The position numbers and the translations under genes were made by a program. Under the pieces are notes generated by a model. That model saw nothing but the letters and a program-made list of their open reading frames with translations. It was not told where the DNA came from and made no database searches. From NCBI GenBank assembly GCA_026127935.1, contig JAJSLL010000001.1, positions 1 through 64,000 of the forward strand: DNA of 64,000 nt, read 5' to 3'. Source of the stretch: Thermoplasmatales archaeon. Its GTDB lineage: Archaea; Thermoplasmatota; Thermoplasmata; Thermoplasmatales; GCA-001856825. Shown piece after piece: positions 17,050-23,223 of this stretch; position 1 is the first letter of the stretch; every line of letters starts with the position of its first letter.

Positions 17050-18063
17050 TTGTTTAAGTACTTTATTCGAATAATGAAACGTCAAATGAAATCAGAAATA
17101 AATAAGTACATCCCTACCAGAGCTGAAATATCAGCAATGAAGGCAGTTATCAAACTCCAGGGATCATCAATAAACGAACTTGGATCATTTATTGAAAAAT
17201 CTCAGGAATGGACTTCTCAGGTAGTTAGTAAGCTGGAAAGCAAAGGATTCGTGACAACCAATAGAAAGGGAATGACCAAGACTGTTGTACCTTCTTCTAC
17301 TGGTTTTGCAACATCCCTTTCTGAACTCGTCCAATCTGAACCATTTGTGCCTTGGGAGAACCTCCTCTCGGGTTCAAGATTAGCTATTCTCTTGGCAGCT
17401 ACGACAGGGGAAAAGAATTTCGTTTCAGACCTGAACCGAACAACCTCATGGAGAGCGAAGAAAGAACTGAGGATGCACGGTATTTCCCCTCTGATGATCG
17501 CTAACAAAGAAATGACCGATCAAAAGGTGGTGAAATTTGTAAGAGAATATGCGGAACATATTGGAGTCCAGTTCATTCACGGCTCTCTTCCGAGGGATGC
17601 CATCATCCTTTGGAAGAGCTGGTTTGAGTGCATTTTCAAATACCCTCTTGGAGAGAACAAGAACTTCCCCAAAGAAATCAACAACATCCAGCCCACTGCA
17701 TTTACTGCATTTCCAAGATACGGTTTGCAATTTTTGACGAATGAAGCATTTTACTACTTTAGTAGTTCAGAAAATAAGCTGACCAAGAATGACATTGTGC
17801 TCCACACACTTTTAGTGGACCCAGGTAATGTGACTAACGTTACATATGCCGTTCTCTTCATTCTCAAGAATTATAGGAAATCAGAAATGAGACAACTAAA
17901 GGTGGACGCACTTAAATATCAACTGGAAGGGTTGGTCGACCAAATAATAACCTATATCAGATCCTCTGGTAATGTTCGCACATCTTACTTCCCCAAATGG
18001 GATGAAATGAGCGAGATTGCAAGAGAATATAGAATAGAGGTGCAAATGTGGACACAACCGTGA
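17050..18063 (+). CDS. winged-helix (MarR-like) protein, putative antitoxin partner of the downstream NTase
   Basis: N-terminal wHTH 'SSINELGSFIEKSQEWTSQVVSKLESKGFVTTNRKG'; 16-nt overlap with the downstream NTase. Confidence 0.65.
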   Translation: MFKYFIRIMKRQMKSEINKYIPTRAEISAMKAVIKLQGSSINELGSFIEKSQEWTSQVVSKLESKGFVTTNRKGMTKTVVPSSTGFATSLSELVQSEPFVPWENLLSGSRLAILLAATTGEKNFVSDLNRTTSWRAKKELRMHGISPLMIANKEMTDQKVVKFVREYAEHIGVQFIHGSLPRDAIILWKSWFECIFKYPLGENKNFPKEINNIQPTAFTAFPRYGLQFLTNEAFYYFSSSENKLTKNDIVLHTLLVDPGNVTNVTYAVLFILKNYRKSEMRQLKVDALKYQLEGLVDQIITYIRSSGNVRTSYFPKWDEMSEIAREYRIEVQMWTQP

Positions 18064-18895
18064 GAAATTTCGATCCAAGTTACGTGAAAAAGGAGCTAGC
18101 AAGAGTCGACAAAACACTTCCTGAAAAAACAAAGATCTATGTCACAGGTGGTGCAGTGATGGCCTCTTCCGGCTTGAAGATCGGAACAAAGGACATCGAT
18201 GTCATCGTCGAATCTAGTAAAGCATTGAACAATCTGGTCTCTGCATTGTTAGAAGAGCAGTACTACACGGCGAGTAGAGCTAGTCTTCCTCCTCCCTACG
18301 TAGGTCTCTCGGCTGTGGTTCTGGAAAACTCACAGGGGTTTCGGTGGGATATCTTTTTGAAGATAGTTGCTAGAAAGTTGTTTCTTTCATCCGGAATGAA
18401 AAAAAGAGCCATGCTAATGTTTCAAGGCAAAAAACTCCTTCATACAGGCTCTCAAATGAGGACATTTTTCTACTGAAGGGTGTGACAGAGAGAGATCGCG
18501 ACCTGGACGATATGTTTACGATTTCAAAGACAGGCTTAGACTATGACGTGATCTACGAGGAGTGTGTATATCAGTCCAGAAAATCCTGAAGGATTTGGGA
18601 ATCAGCACTGTTCGGGCAGTGTGAAGATCTTAGAAAAAAGTACGATGTCGAGATACCATTCTTAAGGAAACTACGCAAACTGGCAGAAGAGGAAATTCTT
18701 CAGGTGAAGATACTGGAAAGTATCTACCATGGGGCATCTACAAAGGAGGCAGTACTGAATGACCTTAAAGGATTGCTTCCAGACGACCTGAAATTTGGGC
18801 TGAACCTGCTTGTCAAACGAAGGAAGATCGCACTATCTAACAATACAATAACCCTAACCGATAGTGCAAAGAAACACCAACTGACATTGCATTGA
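18048..18895 (+). pseudogene. nucleotidyltransferase (DUF6036-like) with frameshift and premature stop
   Basis: 'KIYVTGGAVMASSGLKIGTKDIDVIVESS' NTase motif; frame shifts near 18420-18450 to LSNEDIFLLKGVTERDRDLDDMFTISKTGLDYDVIYEECVYQSRKS*RIWESALFGQCEDLRKKYDVEIPFLRKLRKLAEEEILQVKILES..; TGA at 18587-18589. Confidence 0.7.
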
Positions 18896-19779: not shown

Positions 19780-20098
19780 ATATAATTCTCCTCCTTGAGT
19801 TTCTTATTCTTTTCAACAAGACGATCTATCATCTCCTGATCTCTTGGAATTTCTGCAAGAAGTCGATTCATGAACTATATATTACACCATGGATATACAT
19901 GTTTCCGATACTATGTTTGATAAAATACCATAGTCAAGCACAGGGGACTGATCAGTTACCTTCGAACGAAACCGTTATGCATAAAGATGCATAATGTTTT
20001 GCAAACGGAAAGCCACTTTCGTCCAAGATAAGTTGACACGAAACTCTGAGGAATTAGACCTATAGCAAATTATTAAATTTCGCAACTAATTCCAAATA

Positions 20099-21037
20099 GT
20101 GCACGGAAAGAAAATTTTAGTCACTGGGGCAGCTGGTTTCATCGGTTCTAACCTCGTCGAATCTCTTGTGAAGGACAATTACGTGGTAGGTGTGGACAAC
20201 CTCTCTTCCGGGAAGGAAGAAAATATACGTGAATTCGCATCATCAAAGAACTTTAAATTCAAGAAGATTGACGTGAAGGACAGCGAGGCTCTCAGGAGGG
20301 AAATGGAAGGGGTCGATATAGTGTTTCACCTAAGTGCAAACGCAGACGTCAGAAGAGGCTTCGAAGATTCCAGTGTAGACTTCAGGGAAAACGTGCAGGT
20401 CACCCATACTGTCTTGGAATCTATGAGGGTAATGGACGTCAAAGAACTGGTCTTCTCATCCACCAGCGCAGTGTATGGCAACGCAGACGTCATTCCCACA
20501 CCAGAACTGTATGGTCCATTGAGACCCATCTCTCATTACGGTGCATCAAAACTTGCAGCTGAAGCTTTCATTTTTAGTTTCTCTAGCAACTATGGATTGC
20601 GGTCATCGGTCTTCAGGTTTGCGAACGTTGTGGGGAAGAAGGGAACACACGGTGCAATTGCAGATTTCATCAGGAAGTTATCTAAGAACAAGTCCAGATT
20701 GGAGGTGCTGGGTGACGGCACCCAAATGAAATCTTACATTTATGTTGACGATTGCGTCAGTGGAATGATCAGTCTTCACGGGAAAGAGGAGGGATTGTTC
20801 AATTTGGGTACAAGGGGTAGGACGACGGTTGCGCAGATTGCGGAAATGACGATAGCCAGATATGCCCCTGGCGCTGAGATCAGTTACGTCGGTGGACCCG
20901 GAGGAGCGGGATGGATCGGGGATGTGAAGTTCGCAGGACTTGATATTACTAAAGCTCAAAGGAATGGATGGAAATACGAGACAGAGAGCAACGACGCGGT
21001 CAAGAGAGCAATCGACGATGCAGGGGCTGCCAGATGA
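20099..21037 (+). CDS. galE: NAD-dependent epimerase/dehydratase (UDP-glucose 4-epimerase-like)
   Basis: GTG start; 'ILVTGAAGFIGSNLVESL', 'VDNLSSGKEEN', 'SSTSAVYG', 'YGASKLAAE'. Confidence 0.9.
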   Translation: MHGKKILVTGAAGFIGSNLVESLVKDNYVVGVDNLSSGKEENIREFASSKNFKFKKIDVKDSEALRREMEGVDIVFHLSANADVRRGFEDSSVDFRENVQVTHTVLESMRVMDVKELVFSSTSAVYGNADVIPTPELYGPLRPISHYGASKLAAEAFIFSFSSNYGLRSSVFRFANVVGKKGTHGAIADFIRKLSKNKSRLEVLGDGTQMKSYIYVDDCVSGMISLHGKEEGLFNLGTRGRTTVAQIAEMTIARYAPGAEISYVGGPGGAGWIGDVKFAGLDITKAQRNGWKYETESNDAVKRAIDDAGAAR

Positions 21038-21834
21038 AGGTTCCAACGTTCGTTCAATCTCTCGACAACATTATGAAGGGCGGAATACCTGCGGGGAGCT
21101 CGGTACTATTATTGGGTGAACCGGGGGCAGGAAATTTTGAGTTTTCACTTACCTCAGCTGTCAACCTAGCCCGGGCGCTAGACGGCAAGATTCCAAGGGG
21201 GTTGGAGAATTACGAAGTGGAATTTCCGGAAGGCATTCTGTATGTATCATTTTCAAAGCCGGCCAATGAAATCATTAGAATTCTCAATCTGTCCTTGGAC
21301 GAATCTCTTGCGGCCAGTTTGAGGAAGAGAATATCAATACTCGACCTCTCACGGCTTTACTACTCACAGACTCAGATACCTTCTTCCTGGATTGGAGGAA
21401 ACACTATACGGGACAAGGAAAATCTGGTCTCTTCTTTTATAAAGGAAATAGACAAGGCAGGGAAGAACAAACTGATAATCATAGACTCTTTCACAGACCT
21501 TATCACAAGCAGGTATCTCGATGAGAAAACTATGTTTGATATTTCCAGAGGGATTTCCCGGGCCAGCAAGACTTGGAATTCAATAGTATATGTTTTGATG
21601 ACTGCAAACATAATCGAGAAAAGGGCAGAGTATGTTTTGATGGAGATATTTGACGGGACGCTCCTCTTTGAATGGAACAGCATGGAAAGATCAAGCAAGA
21701 GGAAGAGGTACATGTCAATCCCCAGATTTACGGGAGTGCTGCCTCTGATTGAGAGAGAGAAGATAGAGCGATTTGACACCGAATTTGATTTCAAGACTGG
21801 AATGATAGTACTCAACACTACGAAGGTGAAATGA
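21034..21834 (+). CDS. KaiC/RAD55-like ATPase paralogue with degenerate Walker A
   Basis: 'VPTFVQSLDNIMKGGIPAGSSVLLLGEPGAGNFEF'; Walker-B-like 'LIIIDSFTDL'. Confidence 0.75.
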   Translation: MKVPTFVQSLDNIMKGGIPAGSSVLLLGEPGAGNFEFSLTSAVNLARALDGKIPRGLENYEVEFPEGILYVSFSKPANEIIRILNLSLDESLAASLRKRISILDLSRLYYSQTQIPSSWIGGNTIRDKENLVSSFIKEIDKAGKNKLIIIDSFTDLITSRYLDEKTMFDISRGISRASKTWNSIVYVLMTANIIEKRAEYVLMEIFDGTLLFEWNSMERSSKRKRYMSIPRFTGVLPLIEREKIERFDTEFDFKTGMIVLNTTKVK

Positions 21835-22526
21835 TGGAGAATGTAGACACCGGAGTGGACGGACTAAACACGATGCTAGGAGGAGGGATCCCTTCTGGAA
21901 GCTCTACGCTCGTGCTTGGTAGCTATGGCGCTGGTAAGACAACCATGGGCATACACTTTGCACACAGAGGGGCGTTGAATGGCGAGAACGTCGTTTATTT
22001 CACCCTTGAAGAGAGGAAGGAGAGCATAATTCTAGCCTCCAAATCATACAACAAGGATTTCACCCCCTACCTAGACAAGAACCTGTTCCTTCTGAATCCC
22101 GGCACAGTCGAATTCGTTGAGATGTTGAAGTCTGAGGGGAATTTCAAGGCCAGTATTGAGTCGCTGAAACCTAAGAGAATTGTGATAGACAGCATATCAT
22201 TGATACTGATGGTGGCAGAAAATGATGTACTGAAACGGAACGTGATAATCAATCTCTCCAATGCGCTGAGAGATCTGAATGTCACATCTTTCCTCTTGGC
22301 CGAATCAAACGTTTCGATTCCCTACTCCAGCAGAGACGGGCTAGCTGAATTCGTTTCAGACGGAGTAATCTCGCTACAGAACAGGTATGACGACAGCATA
22401 GGTTCCACAACGAGCATAATAAGGGTTCTTAAGATGAGGCTGACTAATCACGATAGAAAAGCCAGACCATACAGCATCGGATCAAATGGAATAGAGATCC
22501 TTGCAAAATCAGAACTGTTTCAATGA
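21831..22526 (+). CDS. KaiC/RAD55-like RecA-superfamily ATPase
   Basis: 'TGVDGLNTMLGGGIPSGSSTLVLGSYGAGKTTMGIHF', 'RIVIDSISLIL'. Confidence 0.88.
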   Translation: MMENVDTGVDGLNTMLGGGIPSGSSTLVLGSYGAGKTTMGIHFAHRGALNGENVVYFTLEERKESIILASKSYNKDFTPYLDKNLFLLNPGTVEFVEMLKSEGNFKASIESLKPKRIVIDSISLILMVAENDVLKRNVIINLSNALRDLNVTSFLLAESNVSIPYSSRDGLAEFVSDGVISLQNRYDDSIGSTTSIIRVLKMRLTNHDRKARPYSIGSNGIEILAKSELFQ

Positions 22527-22533
22527 ACCCGCT

Positions 22534-23223
22534 TCAAAATAATCCGAATTCGATTCTCTTCCCCGGCGTTCTCAACCAGTAATCTCCAATCTCTGAAGTG
22601 TTCTTGACGTGAGTGCCTGCACAGGCACAGGAGTCAAGTCCTTCTATCTCTACCACCGAAATTTCTACGACCGACTTAGGAAGCTTGTCAAGGTTGCATC
22701 TAGCCATCAACTTTGGATCAAGGTCGTCACGCTTGACCTCGTATCTCTTCACGTTTCTTGCGGTCTTGTTTATTTTGTATCCCTCGCTATTCACCTTGAT
22801 GCTGCTCGAATCGCTCTCTATGTACCCATATCCTGGAAAAACTTCTGTCACCAATGATGGAAAGCCTGTCTTGAAAACAACGGCAGAGATTGCATGTTGA
22901 AGAGTGTGCATTTTCATGATCCTGTATCTTCTTTCCCAGTCCAAGACCAACTTGGCCCTAAGTATGGGCGCTTCTACTGTGGATAGATGCAAGACGTTCT
23001 TACCCTTCTTTCTTACGTTGTAGATAGGTATCTTCAAATCCCCCGATATTAGCATCCCCCGGTCTCCAGGCTGCCCTCCTCCCTGATAATGCAATATTGT
23101 TCTATCGAGGATGTACCCTCCATTCTCGTATCCAAGAACTTTGACTTCTGTCTCTTTAATGTATGAGCCTTCTATGCCATGGAGGTACAGTAACGAACCT
23201 CCATCACTCAATGAATGTTTCAC
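22534..23223 (-). CDS. alaX: alanyl-tRNA editing protein AlaX
   Basis: 'LHYQGGGQPGDRG', 'KMHTLQHAISAV', 'CACAGTHVKNTSEIG'. Confidence 0.9.
   Translation of the reverse strand: MKHSLSDGGSLLYLHGIEGSYIKETEVKVLGYENGGYILDRTILHYQGGGQPGDRGMLISGDLKIPIYNVRKKGKNVLHLSTVEAPILRAKLVLDWERRYRIMKMHTLQHAISAVVFKTGFPSLVTEVFPGYGYIESDSSSIKVNSEGYKINKTARNVKRYEVKRDDLDPKLMARCNLDKLPKSVVEISVVEIEGLDSCACAGTHVKNTSEIGDYWLRTPGKRIEFGLF

Follow-up and report, generated by a model that had tools for sequence, protein, structure and literature searches.

A KaiC-family protein with a conserved, inactivated ATP site (A) and an intact KaiC-family ATPase (B) are encoded side by side across the archaeal class Thermoplasmata. The two genes are neighbours throughout, and the proteins are therefore very probably the halves of one two-part machine. 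We consider it likely that this pair is the functional unit, rather than the three-gene triad in which it sits in the window (the whole 64,000-nucleotide stretch of DNA analysed here). By the same judgement, its products would form an obligate heteromeric KaiC-type complex in which ATP is used only at the B sites and the site in A is plugged. KaiC-like proteins are widespread in archaea and mostly lack a known function. A fixed pair that spans the class, in methanogens and acidophiles, would provide a defined complex for purification, and a clear test of pseudo-ATPase subunits tuning a KaiC-type machine.

In the window, A and B follow a third gene, E, on the + strand, and the three are chained by two ATGA overlaps (21034-21037 and 21831-21834). 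This is exactly the arrangement of coupled genes that an earlier note on this DNA had described, down to coordinates and strand. The TATA-like stretch ahead of E is a candidate promoter, and its position suggests a leaderless transcript for the three-gene unit. The features are as follows:

20067..20080, + strand: TATA-like A+T-rich stretch aaattattaaattt, read from the sequence, ∼25 nt 5′ of the GTG start of E
20099..21037, + strand: E, extended-SDR NDP-sugar epimerase/dehydratase (Pfam/NCBIfam matches); a lineage-specific upstream neighbour, not core of the module
21034..21834, + strand: A, KaiC-family pseudo-ATPase, 266 aa, starting at a conserved ATG within the ATGA overlap
21115..21144, + strand: degenerate Walker A of A, GEPGAGNFEF; in 95/95 proteins it lacks the Lys and has Glu/Asp at residue 36
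21256..21258, + strand: Lys75 of A, basic in 94/95, where B and KaiC have their catalytic Glu pair
21484..21486, + strand: Walker B Asp151 of A, retained in 94/95
21724..21726, + strand: Arg231 of A, a basic residue (Lys/Arg) in 95/95, at the alignment position of the trans-acting Lys found in B and KaiC
21831..22526, + strand: B, intact KaiC-family ATPase, a KaiC_arch_3/TIGR03880 relative by NCBIfam match and alignment, 231 aa
21918..21944, + strand: P-loop of B, GSYGAGKTT, a canonical Walker A that has its Lys in 91/91 proteins
22008..22013, + strand: Glu60-Glu61, the catalytic pair of B, conserved in 91/91 proteins
22431..22439, + strand: trans-acting Lys-Met-Arg 201-203 of B, Lys and Arg invariant in 91/91

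Membership of both proteins in the KaiC superfamily was established by the HMM searches that the earlier note had proposed, with Pfam PF06745 scores of 45.7 bits for A and 168.4 bits for B against a cut-off of 26.6. A KaiC search of the window's own genome returned B as the best match and A as a weak, split one. The P-loop and Walker B of A had been read correctly: LIIIDSFTDL is kept at Walker B, and GEPGAGNFEF lacks the Lys and Thr of Walker A. Alignments across the class comprised 95 A and 91 B proteins. At residue 34, the Walker Lys position, no A protein carries Lys (0/95), and two residues further on all 95 carry Glu or Asp. Residue 75, at the second Glu position of B's catalytic pair, is Lys or Arg in all but one. 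Residues 74-75 of A fall on 60-61 of B in the profile alignment, and 231 of A on 201 of B in the merged one; the A-B match is weak in the C-terminal third, which makes the finger assignment less sure than those of the P-loop and Glu sites. At that finger the basic residue 231 is universal among the A proteins, which have lost the trans-acting Arg that B carries two positions further along. A has thus shed its cis machinery (Walker Lys, Thr and catalytic Glu) and retained Walker B Asp151 and the trans Lys. Without the Walker A Lys and catalytic Glu pair of an active KaiC-type ATPase, it would be classed by its residues as an iKaiC, a KaiC-like domain with a degraded ATP site. An insert specific to A contains an invariant Pro116 and Trp119.

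A local mutation or sequencing error was the alternative that the earlier note had named for this motif, and a normal Walker A was looked for among the orthologues without a single Lys being found. Every A orthologue from 41 related genomes that covers the P-loop reads GxxGxGxxEF, without the Walker Lys, and the degenerate loop is retained down to ∼33% identity. In one close relative (G002), A differs by 17 bases, all of them silent (dN 0, dS 0.10); in another (G003), dN is 0.012 and dS 0.12. At larger distances, synonymous sites of A are saturated. Because distant orthologues keep the motif and close copies differ almost only at silent sites, the degenerate A is not the product of chance or sequencing error. 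By these substitution patterns, A is under purifying selection.

In B, the P-loop GSYGAGKTT is canonical, as had been recognized from the sequence. B is KaiC_arch_3-like: its best model is TIGR03880 (7.6e-52), with a score of 176 bits that lies under the NCBIfam cut-off of 249.45. Matches to this model above the cut-off occur in 14 Thermoplasmatota genomes. Lys36, Glu60, Glu61, Lys201 and Arg203 are invariant in 91/91 proteins, the residues expected of an active KaiC-type ATPase site. Among 14 control genomes, Haloferax volcanii gave the sole TIGR03880 match, which lies above the cut-off. A plasmid search outside Thermoplasmata for relatives of B accompanied by an A gene returned only ordinary KaiC-type proteins.

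The pairing of the two genes is nearly without exception. In 121 of 122 loci, a set that includes some duplicates from the same genome and has 96-97 distinct A sequences, B comes after A, and the one exception lies within ∼50 bases of a contig end. B stands beside A on the same strand in all 79 named loci, which are drawn from I-plasma, DHVE2/Aciduliprofundum, ARK-15, JdFR-45, Methanomassiliicoccales, Sysuiplasma, Proteinoplasmatales and haloalkaliphilic Thermoplasmata. Orthologues of A were found in 29 of 41 related genomes, and in all 41 the two genes are jointly present or jointly absent (B at E < 1e-65). Co-occurrence extends to 242 of 243 phylum genomes, the sole discordant one being the contig-edge genome; A matches among these 243 fall almost all within class Thermoplasmata, with one outside. 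By profile search, 194 of 300 sampled genomes of the class carry A. That search found no A in the listed genomes of one family of the window's order (f6), which hold only distant KaiC paralogues; this family, without the pair in its sampled members, is probably Thermoplasmataceae.

E does not share this constancy. Its Pfam Epimerase match (4.9e-49) marks it as an extended-SDR NDP-sugar epimerase/dehydratase, but it scores 129.6 bits against the GalE equivalog TIGR01179, below the NCBIfam cut-off of 262.3. The name galE given to it earlier was therefore right about a sugar epimerase-like enzyme but too specific. E adjoins A in 17 of the 79 named loci, namely in the window's family and in two related ones, f3 and f5, the latter with one gene between. 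The other 62, including those of DHVE2/Aciduliprofundum and Methanomassiliicoccales, have A-B without an epimerase, a count in which a few contigs start too near A to judge. In other lineages, the genes beside the pair are FEN1 (with PolD facing), PurC, CinA/NadM/LonB, divergent genes, or none, as called outside the window by a simple longest-ORF heuristic. Clustering of the flanking genes found none, apart from A and B, that is common to all lineages. Because the link of E to A is confined to the window's family and its two relatives, with other neighbours elsewhere, the triad is a local operon around a class-wide pair, and E lies outside the functional unit. In the I-plasma AMDU3 record ATMD01000001 (L064:9005-10001), the epimerase is in two overlapping frames, from a frameshift or assembly error, and A and B are intact.

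The neighbourhood survey across Thermoplasmata that the earlier note had called for thus divides its central proposal, an obligate active/inactive heteromer regulating a surface-sugar step tied to the epimerase. The proposed heteromer is well supported by adjacency, co-occurrence and, at the level of sequence, the conserved inactive site; the sugar role fails with the triad, which is not conserved. A regulator of surface-sugar synthesis linked to E would fit the overlap of all three frames in the window's family and the epimerase next to or near A in f3 and f5, but the 62 epimerase-free loci make it very unlikely.

Folds and phylogeny place the pair among KaiC and RadA-paralogue proteins. AlphaFold2 monomers are confident (pLDDT 90.7 for A and 93.5 for B), and both have the KaiC/RecA fold, like the CI domain of cyanobacterial KaiC and the single-domain archaeal KaiC_arch_3. 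In Foldseek searches, the top matches of A are KaiC and PH0186; those of B are PH0186 and KaiC, and SSO2452 also ranks high for B. The best PDB sequence match of A is 2w0m, of the SSO2452/PH0186 group of archaeal RadC/RadA paralogues. In a tree that also included ArlH and further KaiC paralogues, A forms a single clade (support 100) on a long stem that leaves its deeper position in the KaiC tree unsure, and B forms another (86). A does not join ArlH. Another KaiC paralogue of Aciduliprofundum/DHVE2 (L189, L177, L181 and L182) has the unusual P-loop GPTGSMKSS.

Like A, ArlH is a KaiC-family protein, with weak similarity to the C-terminal half of A, and 91 of 95 A proteins give sub-threshold matches to the NCBIfam ArlH model, a likely source of archaellum misannotation. 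With no specific Pfam/NCBIfam model of its own, A risks being annotated as a KaiC ATPase or as ArlH. Against a cut-off of 215 bits for the ArlH model NF052589, A reaches 32.3 and B 43.9. That the pair is a diverged, ArlH-like switch for archaella or type IV pili is extremely improbable: the window's family and f3 lack ArlH yet have A-B, several f6 genomes have an ArlH-like match without A-B, A and ArlH fall in separate clades, and I-plasma is reported to have lost archaella (PMC10354927). An archaellum link was rejected on this distribution, in which pair and archaellum are independent.

Recombination is a possible, if doubtful, setting. A-B might be a recombination mediator, a counterpart of Rad55-Rad57 or the Shu proteins, that aids or restrains RadA on ssDNA with B as the ATPase and A as a structural partner; this would narrow the heteromer idea to one particular role. 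SSO2452 and PH0186 are among the solved structures most like the pair in fold, and an action on RadA has been reported for archaeal RadC proteins (PMC4080772). Moreover, in the haloalkaliphilic Thermoplasmata group, FEN1 lies within a few bases 3′ of B, with the PolD large subunit facing it. These FEN1 loci (L088, L089, L109, L112, L117, L118, L127, L131, L132, L135 and L137, most with PolD large subunit convergent behind) number 11 and are confined to this one group, however, and elsewhere the pair is accompanied by PurC, CinA, LonB, the epimerase or no partner. KaiC-family folds are also common to signalling proteins, and KaiC homologues function as regulators as well (PMC13286277). As RadC proteins act on RadA and KaiC homologues regulate, the target of A-B may lie in recombination or in signalling, and gene neighbourhood does not choose between them.

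A further question is whether A needs B at all. The term iKaiC is used in PMC5847659, citing Makarova et al. 2017, for inactivated KaiC-like domains of archaeal signalling proteins, and A could be an independent, non-ATPase adaptor of this kind that only shares an operon with B. We regard this as unlikely, since class-wide invariant adjacency and joint absence are stronger than is usual for mere operon-mates. Like an iKaiC, A is a KaiC-family protein without a working P-loop; unlike one, it stands alone, has one fixed active partner, a reversal of acidic and basic charges and its own insert. Some points also weigh against a heteromer. Adjacency can mean co-regulation without contact, and among the loci searched there is no natural A-B fusion; the functions of the neighbours differ by lineage, so no target is indicated.

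The heteromer that we favour could work as follows. Translation of A and B from a shared message would be coupled, and the two proteins would join in a complex of the KaiC/aRadC type, probably a ring or an even-numbered oligomer. ATP would be bound and hydrolysed in B only. In KaiC, the Glu pair serves to activate water and to bind Mg, and the next subunit supplies Lys224/Arg226, which touch the phosphates (PMC2777353); similarly, each B site would be closed by the basic finger of the neighbouring subunit, whose Lys is retained in A. The pocket of A has a conserved charge reversal, with an acidic P-loop residue and a basic one in place of the Glu, and a salt bridge between the two may keep the pocket shut. 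On this view A would not cycle itself but, as a fixed subunit, would constrain and steer the ATP-driven change of B, giving the complex a regulatory role, and its insert, with the invariant Pro116 and Trp119, may present a binding surface for a putative partner. Rad55-Rad57, where the ATPase matters in just one of two RecA-family partners (PMC8472222), offers a precedent by analogy: both systems would join two RecA-family paralogues with an important ATPase in one. The two differ in subfamily, and Rad57 has its Walker Lys (K131), which A has lost.

Comparison with other known systems suggests what is new here. B retains the Walker A, catalytic Glu pair and trans Lys/Arg of KaiC and KaiC_arch_3, but KaiC is a homo-hexamer (PMC2777353), whereas an inactive A is always encoded beside the active B. 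Archaeal RadC proteins are reported to be ring-forming ATPases for which no inactive partner is described in PMC4080772; A-B resembles these RadC/RadA paralogues in the best PDB sequence match of A and among the best folds of B, and differs from them in having such a partner. From ArlH it is set apart by clade and distribution. Inactive KaiC domains were already known, and the novelty appears to be the fixed active/inactive pair with its conserved charge reversal. No description of the pair was found in the literature searched, although the Makarova et al. 2017 survey of archaeal KaiC proteins may already list the family. At somewhat below even chances, we further propose that active and charge-plugged subunits alternate in a class-wide KaiC hetero-oligomer, with ATP sites at every second interface. 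Such an alternating A-B ring would, to our knowledge, be the first in the KaiC family to consist of obligately paired active and inactive subunits.

Two other loci were observed in the window. A gene with an AlaX-like alanyl-tRNA editing domain (22534-23223, − strand) is convergent with B, with 7 bases separating the stop codons, and the same layout recurs in the window's family. Further upstream (17050-18476, + strand) are two overlapping genes, one encoding a protein with an HVO_2833 C-terminal domain (5.6e-17); the pair gives a weak DUF6036 nucleotidyltransferase match, below cut-off, and its layout is like that of an AbiE-like nucleotidyltransferase pair.
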